From contig NZ_FWFT01000007.1 in NCBI RefSeq assembly GCF_900172275.1, positions 1 to 64,000 on the forward strand: 64,000 nucleotides of DNA. Direction: 5' to 3'. A program made the position numbers and the translations under genes. Below the pieces are notes generated by a model, which was not told the origin of the DNA, did no database searches, and saw only the letters and a program-made list of their open reading frames with translations. The stretch is from Pseudooctadecabacter jejudonensis (lineage in GTDB: Bacteria > Pseudomonadota > Alphaproteobacteria > Rhodobacterales > Rhodobacteraceae). How positions within the stretch are numbered: position 1 is the stretch's first letter; the number at the start of each line of letters is the position of its first letter. Positions 7,625 through 60,133 of the stretch are shown here, piece by piece.

Positions 7625-8701
7625 TCACTGCCCCAGCTGTTTCCACGTCTTCATGGTGTTGAACACCGCACGGTTGATCCGCGTCGACCGGTTGGCGCAG
7701 CCACCATAGTTGTGAATGCCGATCACATGACGGCGTTTGCGGGTCTTGTCATACCGCCACGTGGGGCTGCCGCTTTGGCCCGGTGCGGTATCAAACATAT
7801 AGGCCAGCCGCTGCGGTTCCGTGCCGACAATGCGGCCCGCGTTGTACCACTGCGTGCCAAAGGTTTTGTCGCCAGGATAGCCAGAATTATTGGCCAACAG
7901 ATCCTTCAACGATGCATCCGACAGCGCCGCGAAGCCAAACCACCCTGTCTGACGCCCAAGGGGGGCAGTCTCCGGCAGCACGATGCAGGCATAATCATCC
8001 GCAGGGCGGTGATCGTTCACCCAACCGCTGACGCTGTGAAACTGCGTGCTGATCGCGGACCCGAACGGGCGACGTGTCCCGCTCATGCCGGGGATGACCT
8101 CGATCTTGGTCGCCCAACCGCCGTTGCGTTTGGAATGCACGCAATGGCCTGCCGTCATCACAGTCCGCGGAGAGATAAACCACCCCGTACCGCGCGACCG
8201 TGTGCCATTGGCCATGGTGATGATCAACTGACAGATCATGCGCCAAGGTGGTGTGCCATTCTCACCCACCTGCACGCGGCCGTCATGGCCACAGACACTT
8301 TCCATCGGGGCGTCATCGAAATGGGCGGAACAGGCCATAGGAATATGATCATAGCCTTCGGGCAAGCCCACGGGCATTGTTTCGCCCAGGCCCCGGACCA
8401 TCGGGTCGAACAATTCGAACCCTTCAGCATATTCCAGTGATCCGCCGCCGTGGGTTTCAACATCCAACCCGTTCTCGACCATTTCGTCGCTGGCCCAGGT
8501 GTCGCTTTCGGCAAACTCATCCTGCGGTCCGCTGTTGATGAAATCCTCCATCATCTCGATGTCGGACGCCGCCACGGTGGGCGCGCTTTCGACACCACCA
8601 GAACATCCGCAACCGCAATCGTCCTCTTTGGCCTTTGTCTTAGATTTGGCCTTGCTCTGGCCCTTTGTGGACTTTGTTGTCTTTGTGCTTTTCGCCGCCA
8701 T
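7625..8701 (-). CDS. V8-like (glutamyl-endopeptidase-type) serine protease
   Basis: A 358-residue trypsin-fold protein. The triad is His186 (VMTAGHCVH), Asp236 (PADDYACIVL) and Ser310 (APGQSGSPTW). His330 in VIGIHNYGG sits where V8 protease has its S1-pocket His in GIHWGG, suggesting cleavage after Glu. The first 27 residues are rich in Lys, Ser and Thr, then DDCGCGCSGG follows, and residues 40-130 form an acidic, probably inhibitory pro-region. No classical signal peptide is seen. ATG 8701 has AAGGAGAGG upstream. It lies 69 bp after the acidic/cationic protein gene in the same direction, so co-transcription and processing of that neighbour are plausible (inference). Confidence 0.85.
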   Translation of the reverse strand: MAAKSTKTTKSTKGQSKAKSKTKAKEDDCGCGCSGGVESAPTVAASDIEMMEDFINSGPQDEFAESDTWASDEMVENGLDVETHGGGSLEYAEGFELFDPMVRGLGETMPVGLPEGYDHIPMACSAHFDDAPMESVCGHDGRVQVGENGTPPWRMICQLIITMANGTRSRGTGWFISPRTVMTAGHCVHSKRNGGWATKIEVIPGMSGTRRPFGSAISTQFHSVSGWVNDHRPADDYACIVLPETAPLGRQTGWFGFAALSDASLKDLLANNSGYPGDKTFGTQWYNAGRIVGTEPQRLAYMFDTAPGQSGSPTWRYDKTRKRRHVIGIHNYGGCANRSTRINRAVFNTMKTWKQLGQ

Positions 8702-8770: not shown

Positions 8771-9295
8771 TCAGGCGCGTTGCGCGCGGATGCACTTGAA
8801 CGCCTCATAGGCGGCCTTGATCGCGGTGCCGTACTTTTTGGCCTTAAACGCCGTAATCGCGGCGACAATCTTGCCCACGCACTTGGCGTACTTGCCCAGA
8901 CGGCGGGCCAGTTCGACCATCTTCTTGATGATCTTCTTGGCGCGGTTCTTGATGGCATTCACAATCGGCTTCACACGGTCGCGAACCCAGCTGCCCAGGC
9001 CCTCTTCGCCATTGTCGCCGTAGTTGCCATCGGCCATTTCCAAAAGCGATAGCGTGCCGCCTGTTTCTGCTGCGGGGGCGGCAAAGGGCGTGCCCTCAGC
9101 GGCCTGATCAAGAAGGCTCGTCTGCGCGGTCTCAGCCTCAGGCGCCATAAAGGTTGTGCCAAAGTCTTCGTCGAATTGGACGAAGTCCGCCTCGATTGAA
9201 GCCACTTCTGCCGCTTCATCATCCATTGGGGCAGCGCTCAGCACCTGAGACGCAGTTGCAGAAGACCCAGAGTTGCTAACCAATTCATTGTCCAT
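8771..9295 (-). CDS. Acidic-leader/cationic-helix two-part protein (possible peptide precursor)
   Basis: A 174-residue protein of no recognised family. Residues 1-104 contain no Lys or Arg and about 21 Asp/Glu; residues 105-174 contain 21 Lys/Arg and only three or four acidic residues, in a helix-friendly run (for example NRAKKIIKKMVELARRLGKY and AAITAFKAKKYGTAIKA), with two Cys at 139 and 168. A Glu97-Glu98-Gly junction lies just before the cationic part. The design, an acidic pro-part neutralising a basic amphipathic part, recalls precursors of membrane-active peptides, but this is inference. AAGGA lies before ATG 9295. A V8-like protease gene follows and the BTAD regulator is divergent. 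Confidence 0.75.
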   Translation of the reverse strand: MDNELVSNSGSSATASQVLSAAPMDDEAAEVASIEADFVQFDEDFGTTFMAPEAETAQTSLLDQAAEGTPFAAPAAETGGTLSLLEMADGNYGDNGEEGLGSWVRDRVKPIVNAIKNRAKKIIKKMVELARRLGKYAKCVGKIVAAITAFKAKKYGTAIKAAYEAFKCIRAQRA

Positions 9296-9541
9296 GTCAT
9301 GTTTCCTTCAAAACGGAAGGCCCTTTAATATCTGCGGGCCATTTATGTTGCGCCGAAATGCGGCGAAGGTCCGGAATGAACCTTGCAGTCATCCAAACAC
9401 TCACCCCGTCAACGCAACGCCAGCCCGTCGTCTTTTTGGCGTTAATCTTTCGTAAAGGTTTTGAGCGGCTGACATGACGCTGGCCTTCCGCTACGCTGAC
9501 GCAGGGTAAAATCGGCGCGTCAGCAAGGGGAAGGGGACACC

Positions 9542-11545
9542 GTGGGTGACAATCGCATCATGCTCAGATGTCTCAGCGGCGCATGGGTTGAAGGCGCGAC
9601 CGCGGACGCAGAGGGCAACCTGCGCATCACGGCCCGCAAGAAGGTCGCCCTTCTGGCCTATCTGGCACTGGATCGACAAAGCGCACCGCGTGATTTGCTG
9701 GCAGGCCTGATCTGGGGCGACGTCCCCGATGCCAAGGCCCGCGCGTCCCTGCGTCAGGCGCTGTCGGAATTGCGGGCCGCCCATCCGGTTTTGCAACAGG
9801 CCCTCGTGATTGACCGCACGACCGTGTCGCTGGTGCCGGGGCACATCGATATAGAAACCGATGCGATTGTGGATCAGGTTACATCCGGCCAAATGCCCCC
9901 GCAATTGCGCGCGGGGGGTGAGACCGTCAACGACATTCTGTACGGGTTTGAAACCATCGGCGAGAGGTACGCCGACTGGGTCCGTGACATCCGCAAAGCT
10001 TGCAGCGATCGTATATTGCAGGCACTGACCACCACCGCAAACCGCGTCGATCTGCCCGCTGCCCTGCGCATTGATCTGGCCGAGGCCGCATTGATGCTCG
10101 ACCCCTTGAGCGAACGGAACTGCCGCGCCGCCATGCAATTGGCCCTTGGGTTGGGCGACACCGGCAAGGCGCTGCAAATCTACTCGACCTTTTATGCGCG
10201 CATGGAGGCCGAACTGGATATGGAGCCGTCCCTCGAAACCCAAGACCTCGCCGTCAGCATCAAACTCAACGGGATTGAGGCATCAGAGGCCCAGGCCACC
10301 ACTCCGACCTCATCGCCCACCGCACCCACGGTCCCGCCCCATCGCAACCATGGCCGCCCGACCCTTGCGGTGCTGCCGATGCAGGCAACCGGATCGGAGC
10401 CCATCGACGATTATCTGCCCGAACTGCTGGTCGACAATCTGGTGCTGCGCATCACCCGTACACGCGACATTTCTGTCATCTCGCGGGTGTCGATCCGGCA
10501 TCTCAGCGAACGGCCCGACATCGCGCAAGTGCTGCTGCACGAACTGGGCGTGCGGTATATCATCAGCGGGCACATTCGTCGGCAGGGCGATGTCTATCAC
10601 CTGAATGTCGAACTTTCCAAAACCGACGAAGGCGTGGTCCTTTGGGTTGACCGCTATCAAACCACCCTGCCCGATCTGGAAGACGCGCAAAGCCGCATTG
10701 CCGATGAGGTCGTAAACCGGATCCTGCCCAACCTGCAGGGGGCCGAACTCAGCGATGCGCGCCTGATCGACGTGGCCCACCTCAGTGCCTATCAAAAACT
10801 GCTGCGTGCCCAGGAACTCATCTACACCCTCTCCCAACCCAAATTCGAAGAGGCCGGGCGCCAACTGATCCAGACCATTGCAGACTGGCCAGATTTCACC
10901 CCCGCCCGCGTCAGTCTGGGCGATTGGCACAGCCTGCGGGTCGGGCAAGGTTGGTCCGACGGGGCAGCGAATGACCTTGCGCAGCTTGAAACCCAGCTTG
11001 AGGCCGCGTTGAAATCCGACCGTCGCAATGGCCGCGCCTTGGCCATGCTGGGCCACAACAAGGCGGTCTATGCCCGCCGTCCGGCTGAGGCCAAGGCCCT
11101 GTTTGATGAAGCCCTAAGCGCCGCACCCGGAGATGCGGAAACCTTGCTGTGGACCGGCCCCAGCCTTGCGTTTTCAGGGCAGGCCGATGCTGCGATTGAA
11201 CGATTGGAACACGCGCACAGCCTGAATTTCGACAACCCTTTGGGCTTTCGCTACGACCACTTCCGCGCCATCGCCTATTTCGCCGCCGACCGGATGGAAG
11301 ACGCCATGGCGCTGGGGCTTGCCTCCGCCCAACGCAATGGGCGCTATACCTCAAACCTGCGACTGACGGCGGCCGCCGCGGCCGCGATCCAGAAGAACGA
11401 TGTGGCGCATGAAATGGCCGCTCGGGTCCTCAGCCTTGAGCCTGACTTCAAAATCGCGCCCCTTGTTGCCGAAAGCCCGTTTTACGATCCTGCCAAACGG
11501 GCGCAATACGGCCAGCTTTTGTTTGCTGCTGGCCTGCCGAGTTAG
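9542..11545 (+). CDS. BTAD-type regulator with TolB-like and TPR domains
   Basis: A 667-residue protein. Residues 1-100 resemble an OmpR/SARP-type winged helix (LRITARKKVALLAYLAL, then RDLLAGLIWGD and ARASLRQALSELR), and residues 100-250 a bacterial transcriptional activator domain (YADWVRDIRKA, AALMLDPLSERNCRAAM, ALQIYSTFYARMEAELDMEPS). Residues 280-395 match the TolB-like module of adenylate-cyclase-type proteins (LAVLPMQATG, LGVRYIISGHIRR, VVLWVDRYQ), then TPR-like repeats to the end. The GTG start follows GGGGAAGGGG; ATG 9560 is possible. It is divergent from the cationic-protein gene and 113 bp upstream of the PAP2-like gene, so it probably controls this island. A shorter relative lies at 58.3-60.1 kb. 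Confidence 0.8.
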   Translation: MGDNRIMLRCLSGAWVEGATADAEGNLRITARKKVALLAYLALDRQSAPRDLLAGLIWGDVPDAKARASLRQALSELRAAHPVLQQALVIDRTTVSLVPGHIDIETDAIVDQVTSGQMPPQLRAGGETVNDILYGFETIGERYADWVRDIRKACSDRILQALTTTANRVDLPAALRIDLAEAALMLDPLSERNCRAAMQLALGLGDTGKALQIYSTFYARMEAELDMEPSLETQDLAVSIKLNGIEASEAQATTPTSSPTAPTVPPHRNHGRPTLAVLPMQATGSEPIDDYLPELLVDNLVLRITRTRDISVISRVSIRHLSERPDIAQVLLHELGVRYIISGHIRRQGDVYHLNVELSKTDEGVVLWVDRYQTTLPDLEDAQSRIADEVVNRILPNLQGAELSDARLIDVAHLSAYQKLLRAQELIYTLSQPKFEEAGRQLIQTIADWPDFTPARVSLGDWHSLRVGQGWSDGAANDLAQLETQLEAALKSDRRNGRALAMLGHNKAVYARRPAEAKALFDEALSAAPGDAETLLWTGPSLAFSGQADAAIERLEHAHSLNFDNPLGFRYDHFRAIAYFAADRMEDAMALGLASAQRNGRYTSNLRLTAAAAAAIQKNDVAHEMAARVLSLEPDFKIAPLVAESPFYDPAKRAQYGQLLFAAGLPS

Positions 11546-11658
11546 CCTCCCTCCCCCTGCGAATGTGGACGATGACGCGTCAAACGGCAGCTTGACGATG
11601 GCTTGACGCCCGCCCCGCTAAGATTCCCCGTATTATAACAACTTGATGGGAGAATTTG

Positions 11659-12699
11659 ATGTTTGGATTTTTTAACGGCGGCATGAATGGCGGCATGAAC
11701 GGCGGTATGAATGGCGGCATGAACGGCGGTATGAACGGCGGTATGAATGGGGGAATGAACGGCGGTATGGCTGCTGGCCCATCCTCTGGCGCCACCGGAT
11801 CAGGGGCCGGCACGTTGCCCTTTGACGGGGTCCTTCCCCTGACAAATATCGACACGGCCAAGGTGCCCCATGGCATGACGTTCCCCAAATCCAGCTGGTC
11901 ACCTGACCTGCGTGCCCAACTGATCTTGGGGGAATTCGGCAGCACCAACTGGCGCAGCCACGATGAGACAAAGACGGACCCAGGTGAGGTTTGGACCCAC
12001 GTCGATGGCTTTACCATCGCCCCTCCATCCCTTGATCACCTCGACAATGTTGAGGCTGAACTGGCCAATCTGCTGGAGCGTCGCTCGTTTGACCGCAATG
12101 GGCCCCGCATGGGTGAAATTGCCCATCAGGCGGATCATTCGATGGATTACTGGACCAACCTTTTGTCCCTGACCCCCGCCAACAAACCCGCCACCATGGC
12201 GCTGATGTCCAGCGGCTTTGCCATTGGTCAAATGGTCGGAATGTACTTTAAGGATTTCTTCGCCCGCGCCCGTCCTGCCCACCTGTTTCCGGCGTTGATG
12301 ACGGTGCTGCCCACGCCGAACCATCCGACGTTTCCATCCAATCATGCCCTGCAAAACGAACTCGTGGGGCTTCTGGCGCTGCGGTGTTTGCCCGATTGCC
12401 TGAAAGACGCCTACGGCGACGCCATTCGCAGCCTCGGCTACCGGATCGGGGAAAACCGCGAAATCGCGGGTCTGCATTTCACCCAAGACAGCGACGCGGG
12501 CCGCGCTGTGGCCCATTGGCTGAATGACACCTACTTGGGCAATCTGGGCACCGTGCAAACCCTTGTGGCACAGGCGCAAGAGGAATGGCAGGTGGACGGT
12601 CACCAAGAAGTCCATAACCTGCCCTATCTCAGCCCCGTGACCTACAGCGGCACCGCCTCCGGCGCCGCCGTGGATCCCGCGCTTGAACCAGCGGAGTAA
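11659..12699 (+). CDS. PAP2/vanadium-haloperoxidase superfamily protein with NGGM repeats
   Basis: A 346-residue protein. Residues 6-37 are eight perfect NGGM repeats, followed by a Gly/Ser/Ala linker. The body carries the three vanadate/phosphate-site motifs: Lys198-x6-Arg205-Pro206 (KDFFARARP), Pro226-Ser227-Asn228-His229 (usually PSGH), and Arg267-x5-His273 (NREIAGLH, usually SRx5H). These define the acid phosphatase/vanadium haloperoxidase superfamily, and length and motif spacing resemble bacterial haloperoxidase-like members more than small PAP2 lipid phosphatases. Whether it oxidises halide or removes phosphate cannot be told. ATG 11659 follows GGGAG; a TTG three bases upstream is less likely. 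The papain-like gene starts five bases after the stop. Confidence 0.8.
   Translation: MFGFFNGGMNGGMNGGMNGGMNGGMNGGMNGGMNGGMAAGPSSGATGSGAGTLPFDGVLPLTNIDTAKVPHGMTFPKSSWSPDLRAQLILGEFGSTNWRSHDETKTDPGEVWTHVDGFTIAPPSLDHLDNVEAELANLLERRSFDRNGPRMGEIAHQADHSMDYWTNLLSLTPANKPATMALMSSGFAIGQMVGMYFKDFFARARPAHLFPALMTVLPTPNHPTFPSNHALQNELVGLLALRCLPDCLKDAYGDAIRSLGYRIGENREIAGLHFTQDSDAGRAVAHWLNDTYLGNLGTVQTLVAQAQEEWQVDGHQEVHNLPYLSPVTYSGTASGAAVDPALEPAE
11674..11769 (+). repeat. Eight tandem 12-bp units encoding NGGM
   Basis: Units of the form AAYGGNGGNATG repeat eight times without interruption, with only silent third-position changes between them. They form residues 6-37 of the PAP2-like protein. Unit number could vary between strains by slippage. 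Confidence 0.95.
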
Positions 12700-12704
12700 G
12701 ACTG

Positions 12705-13667
12705 ATGGTACATTTCGGAACCTGCGCCCCCTCCCCAGAGGCCGCACGCGCCCTCAGAACCAAAACCGCAGCCAGCAACCCGATTGCATGCGAACAAAGC
12801 ACGCCGATCCGGCTGCATGACACGGCGCACCCTTGGCCTGTACGCGACCAATTCGGGCGCGGCACCTGTGTGTCCTTTGCCACCATCGCCGCGATCGAAC
12901 TTCTCAGCGCGCGCCGCGATGACATGCCGCCCGAACGGCTGTCGGAACAATACCTGCATGAGAGGATGCTGACAGCGCATCCTCTGCCCGATGATGTGCA
13001 GCCGACGATCCCCGAGGGCGGCGTGCTTTTGCAACAGGCCCTTCAGGCGCTTGGCAGCCATGGCGTCATCCCGTCTGCGATGATGCCCTACAAACCGTTC
13101 AGCGTCGGCCCCGACGGAACCCTGAACCCGCCCCCACCGGATGAAGCGATCTATTTGGGCCAATCCAATACAGTCGCCACGCAGGCCTATGGCACCATTG
13201 GACCGGCCAAAGGCTTGCCGCCCGCACAAGTCGACACAATCGTGCCCAAAACAGATCTGGCCCACAAATTGCTGTCTTATCTGCAAGAAGGCCTTCCGGT
13301 CGTGATTGGCCTGCCCTTGTTCCAACATGCCAGCGGCCTGTCGAACTGGACATTGCCCAACGTCATTGCAACCGGCGTGGTCCCCTGCCCCGAAGATGAC
13401 AAGGCGCCCGAGCTGACAGGCCCGCGAGACGATGGCCATGTCGTCTGCCTGACGGGGTTTGAACCGGACGCCACTGAACCCTTGGGCGGCTGGTTCATCT
13501 TCCGCAACAGCTGGGGTCTGGAATTTGCCGACCACGCAAAACGGCCCACGGACAGTCATGGGCCCGATCGCGGCGCAGGGCTTCGTGGTTACGGCATGTT
13601 GTCGGCCACCCATGTCAACACCTACTGCTGGGAATACCTGGTGCCGGCCACGCACAGTTGCACATAA
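12705..13667 (+). CDS. Papain-like (C1A) cysteine peptidase
   Basis: A 320-residue protein with the full papain active-site set: Gln49 (oxyanion hole) and Cys55 in VRDQFGRGTCVSFA, His245 in DDGHVVCLTGF and Asn268 in FIFRNSWG. No signal peptide or long inhibitory propeptide is evident; the catalytic Cys lies only 55 residues from the start, so the protein is either cytoplasmic or exported by a non-Sec route. The start ATG 12705 follows GGAG by eight bases and lies five bases after the PAP2-like gene, which makes an operon very likely. A strong terminator follows. The substrate is unknown; bacterial C1A proteins of this kind are often secreted or linked to peptide processing. Confidence 0.85.
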   Translation: MVHFGTCAPSPEAARALRTKTAASNPIACEQSTPIRLHDTAHPWPVRDQFGRGTCVSFATIAAIELLSARRDDMPPERLSEQYLHERMLTAHPLPDDVQPTIPEGGVLLQQALQALGSHGVIPSAMMPYKPFSVGPDGTLNPPPPDEAIYLGQSNTVATQAYGTIGPAKGLPPAQVDTIVPKTDLAHKLLSYLQEGLPVVIGLPLFQHASGLSNWTLPNVIATGVVPCPEDDKAPELTGPRDDGHVVCLTGFEPDATEPLGGWFIFRNSWGLEFADHAKRPTDSHGPDRGAGLRGYGMLSATHVNTYCWEYLVPATHSCT

Positions 13668-35959: not shown

Positions 35960-36109
35960 CAATGCATAAACATTAACGAATGCTTGCGTCCGTTGTCATG
36001 AATGCAGTATTTAAACCACAAGTTGTTGGGATGTTCTGACCGATATGAAGCGTCAGAGGCACCCCAAAAGACAGAACGACCACTTCACCTGCCGCCGAGG
36101 GAACCATCT

Positions 36110-38962
36110 ATGTCTGATCCTATGACCACAAATCCGCTTGCGAGCAATCAATGGCACCTCGATCTACTCGGAGACATTGAGACCATCTGGGCCGACTACA
36201 CCGGTGAAGGCGTTGTTGTTGCCGTCTATGACGATGGTATGGACACCGATCATGAGGATCTGGTCGACAACTATGATGAAAGCCTTGAGTTGTCGTTCCC
36301 GGATGGCGATTTCAATGGGTCGGGCGATGGTCACGGCACGGCCGTCGGGGGGCTGATCGGTGCGGCAAACAATGACATTGGTGGTGTCGGCGTTGCCTAT
36401 GATGTCACGCTGGTGTCTGTCGATTTCCTCAACGATGCCGGGTCAAACTCGGCCTATTCAAGCGCCGTCAATGGCATGGCGAATTTCGATATTATCAACC
36501 AAAGCTACGGTTACACGCCCAACTTCAACCCCGCGCTGAGTTTCGCAGAAAGCGGAACGTTTGGTGCTTTCGATTATGACCTGTCCTATGAGGCGGCCTC
36601 GACGGGGCGCGATGGGCTGGGCACGATCATGGTTAAGGCTGTGGGGAACGATTCCAACAACCCCAACGCGCAGGCGGTCGGGATCTTTGGCAATGCGCAA
36701 GGCGATGCCACAAACAACTGGCATTTTGTCATCGGTGTCGGGGCATTGAACCCAGACGGTTCTGTGGCGAGCTATTCCAACTACGGCGCAAACCTGTTGG
36801 TCAGCGCGGGCGCTGGGTCCGTGACAACTGATCTGGCTGGCGGGGCTGGATATGACGCGTCAGATTATACCAATACCTTTGGCGGTACGTCTGCGGCGAC
36901 GCCGGTAACAGCCGGGGTCATTGCCCTGATGTTGGAGGCCAATCCTGATCTGACCTTGCCGGAAGTCCAGATGATTCTTGCGATTAGTGCATCCATGACC
37001 GGATCTGATTACGGTGATAGTGCTTCGGGGTTTGAAGCAGGGGAATGGCGTACCATTGGTGACGGCACATGGAACGGCGGCGGACTGACCTACAACGTAA
37101 GCTACGGCTATGGTGCTGTTGACGTGCACGCCGCTGTCCGGATGGCTGAGGTCTGGTCGTTGTTCAGCGATGGCCGAACCCTTGAGACGCAGTTGCGTGA
37201 AACGGTAAGCGACACAACCAACTATGTGATCAGCGACCTGTCGACGACGGATATTGTTCTGGATGTGACGGATGGTGTTGTGATCGACCACGTCTACGTC
37301 ACGATCGATATTCAGCACACCTATATTTCGGATCTGACGATCGAACTGATTGCCCCTGACGGGACTGCATTTGAACTGATGTCTGGTGATGGGGGCGGTG
37401 CAGAAATCGATTATGCCTGGACGTTCAGCGTCGCGGGCTTCCGCGGAATTGAGTCCGAGGGCACATGGACGGTGCGCATCATGGATGATGCCTTGGGCGA
37501 TACCGGTGTTGTGAACGACGTCGAGCTTGAGTTTATCGGGGCCCAGGAACGCGATAACGACGTTTGGCACTTTACCGATGATTTCCTTGAACTTGCGCAG
37601 GTTGATGCTGGCCGTCGCCTGATTGGCGGCGAGGCTTCGGAAAGCACCGAAGAGACGATCAATATGGTTGCCGTTACTGGCGATGTGATTGTTGACTTGG
37701 GCATTGATGGCGCCATTCGCGTTGACCGAGAATTCTGGGCGCGGCAGGAGACGGATGCGATCCACAACGTCCTGACAGGGGATGGTAATGATCGGATCAA
37801 CGGACGCGATTCCGACGAAGCGATTGTCTCTGGGCGTGGCAACGATTTGCTGTTCGGCGGTGGCGGGAACGATATCCTTCTTGGTGAGCAGGGCAATGAC
37901 GTCATTTTTGGTGATGAAAACGGGGGCTACGGCACGGAAGCGTCCGGCCAAGTGTATCGTATGTACAGCGCCATTTTTGATCGGACACCCGACACAGGGG
38001 GCCACCAAGTCTGGATGAACCGCCTGCTGACTGGTGAGTTGTCGATTGATGAGGTGGCTGCTGAGTTCATCCAAAGCCAGGAATTCATCAACACCTATGG
38101 GTCCACAACGAATAGTGATTTTGTCTTGTTGCTGTACCAAAACGTGTTGGGACGGGATCCTGATGAAAGGGGTTTCAATGGCTGGGTCAACAACCTGAAC
38201 AACGGCATGAGCCGGTCTGAAGTTGTACGTCGGTTTTCGGAATCTCAGGAACATATCAACAGCACGGCTGCGGGCCTTGAGACCTACGAAAACGATTCCG
38301 ATGCGTCGGTCTACACCGGACGTCTTTTCCGCCTGTACGAAGGTATCTTTGGACGCGCGCCTGATGAGGCTGGGTTCGAAGGCTGGATGAACAATTTTGC
38401 GAACGGTATGACCTTTGCGGAAGTTGCCGGCGCGTTCATGGCGTCGCCTGAATTCCAACTGCTGTATTCCGATACAACCGATGCGGATTTCGTTGAGCTG
38501 CTGTATCAGAACGTTCTTGGACGTGACCCCGATGAGGGCGGTGAGCGGGGGTGGTTGAACAACCTTGCCAATGGCATGCCCCGTGAGACCGTGGTTGAGT
38601 TCTTTATCGAGAGCCAGGAATTCATCAATACAACCACGGCTGACTTGATCGCGTTCATCACCGCTATGGGCGATGACGACGCCATCATTGCCGGGGCCGG
38701 GAATAACATCGTGGCGGGTGGCCGCGACGCCGACACCTTTATCTTCGATATAGAATCGCAGGGAACGACGACGATCCTCGACTTTGAATTGTGGGATACC
38801 ATTGTAGTTGATCTTGAGATCACAAATGATCTGGATAGCGCGCTGTCCCAGCAAGGCGACGATGTTGTCTTCTCGGCAAATGGGGTCGAGTTCATTTTGA
38901 TGGACACTGATCTTGATGACATTGGTGAAGATCAGATCATCTCTGGCGTTATCGACCTCTGA
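36110..38962 (+). CDS. Secreted subtilisin-like protease with P-domain, RTX and DUF4214 modules
   Basis: About 950 residues. Residues 15-340 form an S8 domain with Asp41 (VVVAVYDDGMDTDHEDL), His75 (GDGHGTAVGG) and Ser261 (GGTSAATPVTAGV). Residues about 370-480 match the proprotein-convertase P-domain (HTYISDLTIELIAPDGT, GTWTVRIMDDALGDTG). RTX nonapeptides follow (GGGGNDILLGEQGNDVIFG), then four DUF4214 half-modules and a C-terminal tail like that of the preceding RTX protein. No pro-peptide or Sec signal is seen, fitting type I export. ATG 36110 follows GAGGG; an in-frame start at 36002 has no site. A hairpin follows the stop. Confidence 0.9.
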   Translation: MSDPMTTNPLASNQWHLDLLGDIETIWADYTGEGVVVAVYDDGMDTDHEDLVDNYDESLELSFPDGDFNGSGDGHGTAVGGLIGAANNDIGGVGVAYDVTLVSVDFLNDAGSNSAYSSAVNGMANFDIINQSYGYTPNFNPALSFAESGTFGAFDYDLSYEAASTGRDGLGTIMVKAVGNDSNNPNAQAVGIFGNAQGDATNNWHFVIGVGALNPDGSVASYSNYGANLLVSAGAGSVTTDLAGGAGYDASDYTNTFGGTSAATPVTAGVIALMLEANPDLTLPEVQMILAISASMTGSDYGDSASGFEAGEWRTIGDGTWNGGGLTYNVSYGYGAVDVHAAVRMAEVWSLFSDGRTLETQLRETVSDTTNYVISDLSTTDIVLDVTDGVVIDHVYVTIDIQHTYISDLTIELIAPDGTAFELMSGDGGGAEIDYAWTFSVAGFRGIESEGTWTVRIMDDALGDTGVVNDVELEFIGAQERDNDVWHFTDDFLELAQVDAGRRLIGGEASESTEETINMVAVTGDVIVDLGIDGAIRVDREFWARQETDAIHNVLTGDGNDRINGRDSDEAIVSGRGNDLLFGGGGNDILLGEQGNDVIFGDENGGYGTEASGQVYRMYSAIFDRTPDTGGHQVWMNRLLTGELSIDEVAAEFIQSQEFINTYGSTTNSDFVLLLYQNVLGRDPDERGFNGWVNNLNNGMSRSEVVRRFSESQEHINSTAAGLETYENDSDASVYTGRLFRLYEGIFGRAPDEAGFEGWMNNFANGMTFAEVAGAFMASPEFQLLYSDTTDADFVELLYQNVLGRDPDEGGERGWLNNLANGMPRETVVEFFIESQEFINTTTADLIAFITAMGDDDAIIAGAGNNIVAGGRDADTFIFDIESQGTTTILDFELWDTIVVDLEITNDLDSALSQQGDDVVFSANGVEFILMDTDLDDIGEDQIISGVIDL

Positions 38963-56856: not shown

Positions 56857-58146
56857 TCAGGCCGCTTTTGCGTCTGCTGCGTCACAAATCTGGTGGATCA
56901 GTTTAACCATCGCCTGATGGATTTTGTCGTCCTTGGACAATGTCCTCTCTTCGGTCAGGGACCGCAGACGTGTGTAATTCTTGCGTTTGATCAGACGCGC
57001 GACCTGAGGCAGAACAAATCCGCATTCGGCCAAAGCGATGGCAAGGTATTCGTTCAGATCGACCTCATCCCCGTCTTCGGGAATACACCAGACGTTTTCA
57101 AACAGATACATGATGAACTGCAACACGTCGTCCTTTGGGTGGCGCATGTCTGCCTTCATCGCGCCGGCAAACACATCCTGCACCATTTCATAGGACGGCC
57201 AATAATAGAGATCGTCGTCGCCTGCCTCTCGGATGAATTCGTCCAATGCCACGCGCAACGTCGCCTTGGAGACGGCGTTCGATGCCATGCAGGACTGATC
57301 GCGGAAGGTCGCGTAAAGGGGGACGGGTGACAATGTGACGATAAACTTCGCATCGGGGCGGTGTTTACGAATGAGCTGGCGGATCGCCTCAAGGTTTTCC
57401 TTGTTCTCGCCAACGGTCGAGACCCGGAATTTGTGGCGTTCTGGATCATAGCTGTCTTTGGGGATGGTGCGCCAAAAGACATTGCCCGTAGGCTCATCAT
57501 ACCAGATCTCGGACAAGCCGACGGTCAGGATAAACACATCCGTCTGATCAAAGATGTCGCGTGTGGCGATGCGGACGCTTTCGTCATATCCGTAGGCTTC
57601 TTTGTCGTAGCCATGCCAAAGGTCTTGATCAAACTGGCGGTTTTCCCAGGCCCATTCAAATTGCTGGCGCAAAACGAAGGTGTTTACCATGCCTTCGCCG
57701 CAACGGATCACATAGGCTTTGCTTTCGGCCTCTTTCTGGCCCGCAATGTTGAAATTACGTGCCGCGAGGTGGTTGGAAATGTTGGCGGCAAAGCAACTGC
57801 CGAATGCGGTGATGCGGGTGGATTTGTCAATCACGGGGGCGGCGGGTTTCAACCCGTGAAGAACGGCAGTTTTCACTTCATCTGCCGAATAAAGCTGATG
57901 ACGCTGGGGCAGAATATTGGTGTGCTCACCGCGGTACCAACTGACATGGCGCGATTTGTCAGAATGGTTTTGCATGTCGACCATGCTGGATTTTTTGCGC
58001 TGACGGACACTGATGACGGTGTCTTTGTCTGACGTTTTGGCCACGTTCAAAACCACTCTCTGCTCTTTTTGATTGATATATGGGGTAGCAACCGACCGGT
58101 GCGAATGCAACCACGGCGAACCCTGTGGGGTTGTCGAAATCGCCAT
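56857..58146 (-). CDS. GSCFA-domain protein
   Basis: Up to 429 residues. The GSCFA signature is TRITAFGSCFAANISNHL (residues about 110-130), followed by NTFVLRQQFEWAW, TVGLSEIWYD and KFIVTLSPVPL, which mark an SGNH-hydrolase-like domain typical of this family found with capsule and polysaccharide genes. It may act as an esterase or acyl-transferase on the glycan; no activity is established. The start is uncertain: the longest frame (58146) has no ribosome site and the conserved part begins near residue 65, so ATG 57984 or GTG 58044 are possible. It lies upstream of kdsB on the same strand. Confidence 0.85.
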   Translation of the reverse strand: MAISTTPQGSPWLHSHRSVATPYINQKEQRVVLNVAKTSDKDTVISVRQRKKSSMVDMQNHSDKSRHVSWYRGEHTNILPQRHQLYSADEVKTAVLHGLKPAAPVIDKSTRITAFGSCFAANISNHLAARNFNIAGQKEAESKAYVIRCGEGMVNTFVLRQQFEWAWENRQFDQDLWHGYDKEAYGYDESVRIATRDIFDQTDVFILTVGLSEIWYDEPTGNVFWRTIPKDSYDPERHKFRVSTVGENKENLEAIRQLIRKHRPDAKFIVTLSPVPLYATFRDQSCMASNAVSKATLRVALDEFIREAGDDDLYYWPSYEMVQDVFAGAMKADMRHPKDDVLQFIMYLFENVWCIPEDGDEVDLNEYLAIALAECGFVLPQVARLIKRKNYTRLRSLTEERTLSKDDKIHQAMVKLIHQICDAADAKAA

Positions 58147-58261
58147 CGTGTTCGGGCAGATTTACACGGTTTGCGGCCCCTATGGTCCGGATTGCATTCG
58201 ACACACCGCGTCATCAGTGCATAGTGGGGCAGTGGGGCAGGTGGTTTCGGCGGCGAAGGGT

Positions 58262-60133
58262 ATGGAAACGGTACAATCTCGGTTGTCGTTTGTTCGCAGC
58301 CTTCGGCTGCGGAAATCGCAGGCCGTTTTGCTGTATCTGGTGGCCACGCCGGGACGATTTTACCGCAACGAAATGATCACCCAGCTTTTGTGGGATGGAT
58401 CGGACGAGGTCAAAGCGGGCAATTCCTTTCGTCAAGCGGTCCGGCAGATCAGGGTTGCGTCAGAAACAGGCCAACTGTCGGCCCTTGTGACGCGCAATGG
58501 CACGATCGGTTTTGAGGCGTCAGATCGACGGCCTATTGAAGATGTCTTGGCCGCACAATTGCGGATGCAAGGGGCACAAGGGCCTGCGATGCAGGACATC
58601 CGGACGTATTTACATTTGCTGGATGTGTTGTTGGGGGTCTCGACGCCGTTCGACAGTTGGTTGACCTATGCCCGCACCCAGACCCTTGCAAAAACGCAGG
58701 CTGTGCTTGATGCCGCAATGGCCGGGACAGACATGGCTGTTGCGCGGCGGGCGGCGGAATGCACGATTGAACTGGAGCCGCACAACGAAACGGCGGTCCG
58801 GTTCATTATGCGGGATTTGTGGCAATCGGGGGCGGCAACCCGTGCGATTGCGATCTACAATGACCTTTACGCCCATCTGGATACGTTTTTCGATCAGGAG
58901 CCGGAGGCGGAGACGGTCGATCTTTTGGCCGCGATTACACTGGATCCCGAAGGTCAGCGGTCCAACATGCGCGGTGGACCTGAAAAACCGCGCATCACGC
59001 TTGAGGTTGTGGCCGCTGACAAGCCCACCAACACGGACCACGATGCGAGCCTGCAGGCTGTGTTGGTGTCTGATTTGCGCATGCGATTGGGGCGTTTTCG
59101 GGAATGGGAAATTCAACCGGATGCCGCGCGCGACCCCGCGTTTTTGTCGATTAGGTGTTATCTCCACAGCGTCGGTGATGCGCGGTATTTGTCGGTTGAT
59201 GTCGAACGCCCTGATCTGGGCACGGTCATTTGGTCTGAGATGATCGACGCCCCGAATACGGACTGGACCCGTAAGGTGCGTGGGCTTGTTGTGAACATCG
59301 CGAATGCGCTGAGTGTGGTGGTGTCCCATCGCAAGCATCATGACACCAATGCTGTGATCTATGACAAGTGGCTTGAATCCCAGACGCTGATTGGCACGTG
59401 GAAACGGCAGGATGAAGAACAGGCGATCCGGCTGTTGCATGAGGTCACCGGCGCGGCCCCCGATTTTGGCCCCGCTCATGCGGAACTTGCCGGAGTTTTG
59501 AACGTCCGGCACATCTTGCGGCCCGGCACGCGCCATACCGAAGAGGCGCAGGTGCTGGCCTTGAACCATGCGTTGGATGCTGTGGCCAGCGACCCTATGG
59601 ACACGCGCGCGCACCGGGTATTGGCGTGGTGTTATTGTCATGCCGGAAAATTCGACATGGCAGAATTTCACTTTGAACAATCGCTGCTTTTGAATCCACA
59701 AAACCCCATGTCGCTTGCATCCGCTGCATTGGGGTTTGCGTTTTCGGCCAATACTGCCCGCGCACAGGAGCTGATCGACGATGTCGAAGGCCTTCCCCTT
59801 ACGATGGAGCCGTTCCACCTGATCTATTTGGCAGCGTCAAACTACCTGTGCGGAAATGATCAGATCGCGGTTGATCAATGCGCCCAAGGGGTGGGGTTGA
59901 TGTCAACGGTCGGGGGATGGCACGCCGCGGCCTTGATGCGGATCGGCCGGCCCGATGATGCACGCGCGCGGCTGCACAGCTATGTGGCAGAAATTGCGGA
60001 TCAATGGTGCGGGACTGGACCCGCAGACCCGCAGGCCGTCATCACATGGTTCGTCTCTTGTTTCCCGTTACGAGACAAAACCGTGAGAGAGGATTTACGC
60101 GCCACGTTGATGTCTGTTGCGGCTTTGGATTAA
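58262..60133 (+). CDS. BTAD-type regulator with TPR domain, second copy
   Basis: About 623 residues, related in layout to the regulator at 9.5 kb. It has an N-terminal winged-helix-like part (SLRLRKSQAVLLYLVATPGRFYRNEMITQLLWDG, SFRQAVRQIR), an activator domain (AAECTIELEPHNETAVRFIMRDL, AIAIYNDLYAHLDTFFDQEPE), a degenerate TolB-like part, and TPR-like repeats (AEFHFEQSLLLNPQNPMSLASAAL). The start is uncertain: ATG 58262 is used, but upstream GTGs at 58217-58238 are possible. It is convergent with the peroxidase operon and divergent from the GSCFA gene. Confidence 0.75.
   Translation: METVQSRLSFVRSLRLRKSQAVLLYLVATPGRFYRNEMITQLLWDGSDEVKAGNSFRQAVRQIRVASETGQLSALVTRNGTIGFEASDRRPIEDVLAAQLRMQGAQGPAMQDIRTYLHLLDVLLGVSTPFDSWLTYARTQTLAKTQAVLDAAMAGTDMAVARRAAECTIELEPHNETAVRFIMRDLWQSGAATRAIAIYNDLYAHLDTFFDQEPEAETVDLLAAITLDPEGQRSNMRGGPEKPRITLEVVAADKPTNTDHDASLQAVLVSDLRMRLGRFREWEIQPDAARDPAFLSIRCYLHSVGDARYLSVDVERPDLGTVIWSEMIDAPNTDWTRKVRGLVVNIANALSVVVSHRKHHDTNAVIYDKWLESQTLIGTWKRQDEEQAIRLLHEVTGAAPDFGPAHAELAGVLNVRHILRPGTRHTEEAQVLALNHALDAVASDPMDTRAHRVLAWCYCHAGKFDMAEFHFEQSLLLNPQNPMSLASAALGFAFSANTARAQELIDDVEGLPLTMEPFHLIYLAASNYLCGNDQIAVDQCAQGVGLMSTVGGWHAAALMRIGRPDDARARLHSYVAEIADQWCGTGPADPQAVITWFVSCFPLRDKTVREDLRATLMSVAALD

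Follow-up and report, generated by a model that had tools for sequence, protein, structure and literature searches.

Leaderless cationic helical bacteriocins of the aureocin A53 type are small, Lys-rich proteins with several helices. The balancing of an anionic propiece against a cationic peptide has precedent in animal defensins and cathelicidins, and the propiece of avian cathelicidins is removed by serine proteases, as an extract of PMC4571063 describes. Here we analyse a small gene in a 64,000-nucleotide stretch of Pseudooctadecabacter jejudonensis DNA (contig NZ_FWFT01000007.1, positions 1 to 64,000; hereafter the window) whose 174-residue product is divided into an acidic half and a strongly basic, predicted helical half, and which lies beside the gene of a serine protease. 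Our favoured but tentative reading is that the product is a precursor in which the acidic half neutralises the charge of a cationic helical peptide that would act on membranes, and that the neighbouring protease would release this peptide.

As in animal alpha-defensin and cathelicidin precursors, the charges of the two halves nearly cancel (extract of PMC4571063). The small protein differs from them in being bacterial, in having neither a signal peptide evident by eye nor any sequence match found, in its long Lys/Arg-free acidic half with a conserved helix, and in the placement of its gene beside that of a candidate protease. The proposed arrangement also resembles that of bacterial gasdermins, in which a masked membrane-active protein is encoded beside a protease gene (extract of PMC9612521); here the protease gene is next or next-but-one in all six family members. 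Unlike gasdermins, the small protein has no Pfam match (in a general Pfam scan, not a search aimed at gasdermins) and no strands in its all-helical model, and its proposed mask is the acidic N-terminal half. With the aureocin A53 type the protein shares small size, Lys-richness and multiple helices, and differs by the 98-residue acidic half placed ahead of them. If our reading is correct, the locus encodes a bacterial peptide precursor with the kind of charge mask that animal host-defence peptides are thought to have, next to the protease that activates it, in a design known to date from only a handful of Rhodobacteraceae.

A charge-split protein

The gene and its parts are as follows.

8771..9295, minus strand: gene of the 174-residue charge-split protein, an open reading frame (ORF) read from its ATG, with known homologues
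9002..9295, minus strand: acidic Lys/Arg-free half and candidate pro-part, residues 1-98, net charge -21 by charge count
9161..9226, minus strand: acidic helix, residues 24-45, predicted by AlphaFold2, with E30, E35, F38, D42 and F45 identical in six of six members
8999..9007, minus strand: Glu97-Glu98-Gly99 junction, a candidate Glu-specific protease site found only in homologues linked to an S1 protease
8774..9001, minus strand: basic half with three predicted helices (AlphaFold2), residues 99-174, net charge +18 by charge count, containing Cys139 and Cys168

The plus-strand frame over the gene is interrupted by stops. In the window, as in its two close relatives, the ATG is preceded by an AAGGA at a distance of 8 bases. 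Residues 1-104 contain no Lys or Arg and 21 Asp or Glu, and residues 105-174 contain 21 Lys or Arg and 3 Asp or Glu. The initial annotation, made from the DNA letters and without naming a strand, had described this split, the two Cys of the basic half and the Glu97-Glu98 pair just before it, followed by Gly99; all of these are borne out by the translation, apart from a count of about four acidic residues in the basic half where there are three.

None of 20,000 composition-preserving shuffles reached the charge split of the window protein. A scan for the split, covering 4,700 six-frame ORFs of at least 70 amino acids from the window and from loci no shorter than 7 kb, returned eight rows, seven of which were members of the small-protein family (two of them on the same contig); the eighth was an unrelated, lower-scoring ORF in locus L116.

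Conservation and predicted fold

The family is rare, with six full-length members including the window's. Identity to the window protein is 81% in G010, 74% in L030 (titled as a Sulfitobacter metagenome-assembled genome) and 43-46% in G326, G794 and G800. The last three belong to one genus, which we infer to be Tritonibacter-like from matches to Tritonibacter mobilis plasmids and from common neighbour genes. The initial annotation had made its reading depend on whether homologues keep the acid/basic split; all six members, the window's included, do, with a single Lys at residue 75 of the acidic half in G010. Across the six, net charge ranges from -20 to -22 in the front half and from +15 to +19 in the back half, for a total of -3 to -5. 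The five residues of the acidic helix listed above and the FKAKK and CIRA stretches of the basic half are invariant. Cys139 and Cys168 are likewise kept in all six, and the three distant members carry two additional Cys. Judged from coding sequence, the basic half is under purifying selection: the ratio of non-synonymous to synonymous rates (dN/dS) is 0.19 between the window and G010 and 0.09 between G010 and L030, with dS saturated in the third pair.

AlphaFold2 (three sequences) predicts the acidic helix and three basic helices at residues 100-133, 137-151 and 155-173. Overall confidence is limited (predicted local distance difference test score (pLDDT) 66.7, predicted template-modelling score (pTM) 0.58), with block means of 80-89 for residues 111-170 and a mean of 87 for residues 31-40 of the acidic helix. 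Predicted alone, the basic half again gives three helices (mean pLDDT 83.1, pTM 0.62). In the window protein, the amphipathicity of helix 100-133 was reached by 29 of 5,000 shuffles. In the G326 protein, segments 76-97 (89 of 5,000) and 118-136 (227 of 5,000) exceed chance and 98-115 does not (1,412 of 5,000).

The composition of the basic half, with 11-14 Lys and 6-7 Arg per member and the strong positive charge given above, would also suit a protein that binds nucleic acids or polyanions, with the acidic half mimicking the ligand and the protease neighbour being incidental. We consider this very improbable. The small protein has no credible family match, nucleic-acid-binding families included (no Pfam family at E up to 0.1), its Cys pair is conserved, and a protease gene is linked to it in six of six cases.

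The neighbouring protease and the junction

7625..8701, minus strand: S1 serine protease, glutamyl-endopeptidase-like, 358 amino acids from the ATG used by its relatives, 69 nucleotides downstream of the small gene

The protease matches PF00089 and PF13365 above their cut-offs, indicating a trypsin fold, and has catalytic His186 in TAGHC and Ser310 in GQSGSP, with Asp candidates at 230, 235 and 236. Its closest solved structure is 1p3c (E 1.2e-19, aligned over 199 query residues); among the 11 solved sequences at E up to 1e-5, eight are named glutamyl endopeptidase, one is V8 protease and two are other serine proteases. His330 (in GIHN, counted from the ATG at 8701) aligns with the GVH/GIH histidine of glutamyl endopeptidases, which we take to set their Glu specificity. 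The V8-like assignment made at the outset, with His330 at the specificity position, therefore stands: by sequence the enzyme is glutamyl-endopeptidase-like, and cleavage after Glu is predicted. Unlike the glutamyl endopeptidases that it otherwise resembles (S1B; 1p3c, V8 protease), it has a long N-terminal extension and no evident signal peptide. The extension is Lys-rich at its start; CGCGC and then a run of 77 residues free of Lys and Arg come next. The Lys-rich start and CGCGC recur in the L030 protease, and a Tropicibacter S1 protease adjoining radical SAM genes also starts Lys-rich.

A protease gene follows the small gene in all six loci. In the window, G010 and L030 it is the S1 protease, as the next gene, and the small gene is flanked at its opposite end by a divergent SARP regulator. 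The Tritonibacter-like three have an S8 subtilase one gene further on, in the order small gene, small acidic protein, S8 subtilase, LuxR, SARP, PAP2 and second S8. All three S1-linked members retain the EE-G junction. Throughout the family most Glu residues lie in the acidic half (12-14, versus 0-2 in the basic one), so that cleavage after each Glu would leave basic ends of 72-76 residues in four of the six members, L030 and the three distant ones; the window protein and G010 would be cut twice inside the basic half. If the precursor reading holds, the S1/S8 difference amounts to a natural experiment on the co-evolution of mask and protease.

Alternatively, the small protein may be an inhibitor or pro-region acting in trans to control the protease, with the basic bundle touching the acidic, Lys/Arg-free stretch of the enzyme and the acidic half touching its Lys-rich start. 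We give this some credence but think it unlikely. The partner protease switches class between S1 and S8 while the design of the small protein stays constant, S1 homologues are also found where the small protein is missing (L113, and six of seven genomes with an S1 match), and the acidic half is no more similar to the front of the protease than shuffled sequences are.

The small acidic protein encoded between the small gene and the subtilase (L027:8602-8871; 89 amino acids, net charge -14) has homologues in L036 and L037 and is possibly a partner or antidote. The acidic half was also compared with the front parts of the protease, of this 89-residue neighbour and of the subtilase; a common motif was rejected, as 260 to 1,496 of 2,000 shuffles were as good.

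Distribution

The genome samples mostly held one genome per genus, that of the bacterial family (394 genomes) almost exactly so. Counting the window's own genome each time, the small gene was found in 2 of 41 relatives, in 2 of 19 genomes of the genus, in 2 of the 394 family genomes as credible matches, and in 1 of 385 genomes of the class; the basic half used as a query matched 1 of 299 genomes of the phylum. Weak matches in 23 of the 25 matched family genomes (E 0.003 to 0.095) were rejected, most lying in long unrelated frames, as was one weak match each in the class and phylum searches. In the Tritonibacter-like genus the gene occurs in 3 of 18 genomes; together with the 2 of 19 in the window's genus, this is the patchy spread of accessory genes. 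The SARP protein was matched in 3 of the 19 genomes of the window's genus, the third match being partial at 33%.

The G326 protein also has counterparts in two T. mobilis plasmid records, where the match covers its residues 1-103. On the plasmid of strain F1926 (L035:8818-9207) the open frame stops with the acidic half and similarity continues past the stop, which marks this copy as decaying. No cluster partner was recognised by eye in the 18 kb around it.

Proposed mechanism and its difficulties

We infer the cleavage, release, disulfide, membrane damage and site of action of the small protein as follows. The acidic front half, chiefly its conserved helix, would fold against or mask the cationic three-helix back half. 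The adjoining protease (S1 in the window, a subtilase in the Tritonibacter-like relatives) would cut between the halves or digest the acidic one. The freed product would be a helical peptide of charge +18, probably disulfide-linked, that could damage negatively charged membranes, either those of competitors after release or that of its own cell.

Pointers on location conflict, since no signal peptide is evident by eye, yet the Cys pair is conserved. The first of these would suit an intracellular, gasdermin-like suicide effector, in which stress or phage would activate the protease, the masked protein would be cut inside the cell and the freed helices would permeabilise the cell's own membrane. 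The protease-beside-effector layout of bacterial gasdermin operons (extract of PMC9612521), the control of cell lysis by a trypsin-like peptidase system in Caulobacter (extract of PMC13236601) and the patchy distribution of the small gene point the same way. However, no sensor or NLR-like gene was recognised, PADLOC returned two weak matches for the protease (Avs1b, E 4.4e-4 over 30 residues; LmuA, E 0.064) and none for the small protein, and the conserved Cys pairs would fit an oxidising compartment better than the cytoplasm. We regard a suicide effector as quite improbable.

Several findings weigh against our reading of a charge-neutralised precursor cut by its neighbour. No Sec signal peptide is evident by eye at the start of the small protein or of the protease (the N-termini of the small proteins, such as MDNELVSN... 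and MSDYTAAE..., look hydrophilic), so secretion of the small protein is an assumption, and no exporter or immunity gene was recognised. The EE-G segment is missing in three of six members, the Tritonibacter-like ones with a subtilase neighbour. Cleavage at EE|G, as initially annotated, thus survives as a candidate for the S1-linked three and falls as a general rule; the accompanying proposal of a precursor with a neutralising pro-part loses that site as a general feature and retains the conserved split and the Glu-type protease. The basic half of the window protein contains Glu128 and Glu164, and that of G010 also has two internal Glu; these would be cut too unless the bundle protects them. 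An amphipathic character, first noted for the whole basic half, holds for helix 100-133 and fails for helices 137-151 and 155-173, which are not amphipathic beyond chance (1,303 and 2,160 of 5,000 shuffles). Fold matches of the predicted model are generic helical bundles only, none of them credible.

Rarity and linkage set further bounds. Lys/Arg-free runs of at least 74 residues occur in 39 of 637 putative genes of the window and 40 further loci (described below) and are hence common; what is unusual is the coupling of such a half to a basic helical one, not the run alone. Six of the seven genomes with an S1 match (E up to 1e-20) have no small-protein match, the exception being the window's own, so the protease is not obligatorily coupled to the small protein. 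The family is known from two sub-lineages only, and the conservation counts therefore rest on few independent events. By sequence, the small protein was found in none of the 40 other loci of the module to which its neighbours belong; that module consequently works without it.

A wider SARP, PAP2 and peptidase module

Beyond the small gene, the window encodes the following.

9542..11545, plus strand: SARP/BTAD-TPR regulator by profile matches, divergent from the small gene
11656..12699, plus strand: PAP2 / vanadium-haloperoxidase-like protein, matching PAP2 at E 0.0026 (short of the curated cut-off) and carrying eight NGGM units close to the N-terminus
11674..11769, plus strand: 12-base tandem DNA repeat encoding the NGGM units, by repeat analysis
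12705..13667, plus strand: C1 (papain-like) peptidase homologue (E 0.0021, under the curated cut-off)

The SARP, PAP2 and C1 genes are part of a widespread module, of which the small-protein locus is a variant. A PAP2 profile built from eight proteins matched 128 of the 394 family genomes at E up to 1e-15. We read the loci of the 40 best-scoring further PAP2 matches (L084-L123) with hidden Markov models made from the window and earlier loci, including weak matches to E 1e-4. All 40 held a SARP gene, 31 an S8 peptidase, 6 heme-peroxidase homologues, 5 an S1 and 3 a C1 peptidase. SARP lies immediately upstream of PAP2 in 38 of 41 cases; the gene immediately downstream is S8 in 30 and C1 in 3. 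Literature searches gave no paper on a SARP / repeat-PAP2 / peptidase module.

A perfect tandem repeat near the N-terminus, counted as at least three perfect units of 2-6 residues within the first 160 residues, was present in 49 of 49 PAP2 proteins. Of the 614 other putative genes in the same loci that encode 150 amino acids or more, none has one. The 49 are made up of the proteins from the 40 loci, one of which has two copies, together with the window's and those of seven earlier loci (L027, L028, L047-L050 and L053), and eight of them are the profile seeds. As the sample is the top of the ranking, repeat-bearing members are possibly over-represented, although several matches began past the front part of the profile. 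The units vary between genera (NR, NK, SR, NSF, GAY, GGY, TGW, GGI, GPH, NGGM and others), and 16 of the 36 PAP2 pairs that are at least 55% identical outside the repeat have a unit in common. Retention of the repeat despite its changing letters suggests that repetitiveness itself is selected for. All four PAP2 proteins with C1 as the next gene (window, L100, L108 and L116) carry units of the NGGM/NGGL type.

The pattern K-x6-RP, P[ST]xH, R-x5-H-x3-D, which we take to be the vanadium haloperoxidase / PAP2 residue motif, occurs in all 49 proteins, the window's included. The PAP2 partner is thus haloperoxidase-like by residue pattern and may act as a halogenating enzyme or as a phosphatase. The repeat may outweigh the small protein in importance, and the function of a repeat-headed PAP2 enzyme in so widespread a module is a question accessible to bench tests. 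One speculative view, which we judge unlikely, would make the locus a bacterial counterpart of a granule arsenal: a SARP-controlled island joining haloperoxidase-like and, in part of the loci, heme-peroxidase enzymes, several proteases and a stored charge-masked cationic peptide, in which protease class and cut site changed together (S1 with EE-G, S8 without).

In Rhizobium ruizarguesonis (L053:5500-12953) the order SARP-PAP2-S8 continues with genes for an aKG-HExxH-type peptide beta-hydroxylase and a ThiF adenylyltransferase, raising the question of whether the PAP2 repeat, here NK, may be a modification substrate. A separate reading of the window's locus as one for a ribosomally synthesised and post-translationally modified peptide, prompted by this HExxH/ThiF pair and by the trypsin neighbour of radical SAM genes in Tropicibacter, was dropped because no such genes were seen beside the window's small gene.

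A regulator-site search of the spacers gave no direct repeats and no promoter-like site, and one guessed pattern was without a match; they hold one terminator-like site versus 2.6 expected, and the spacer at 9290-9560 contains two inverted pairs. Elsewhere in the window, positions 36002-38962 (plus strand) encode a subtilase with a P-domain and RTX and DUF4214 repeats, and positions 58073-60133 (plus strand) a second SARP/BTAD-TPR regulator.
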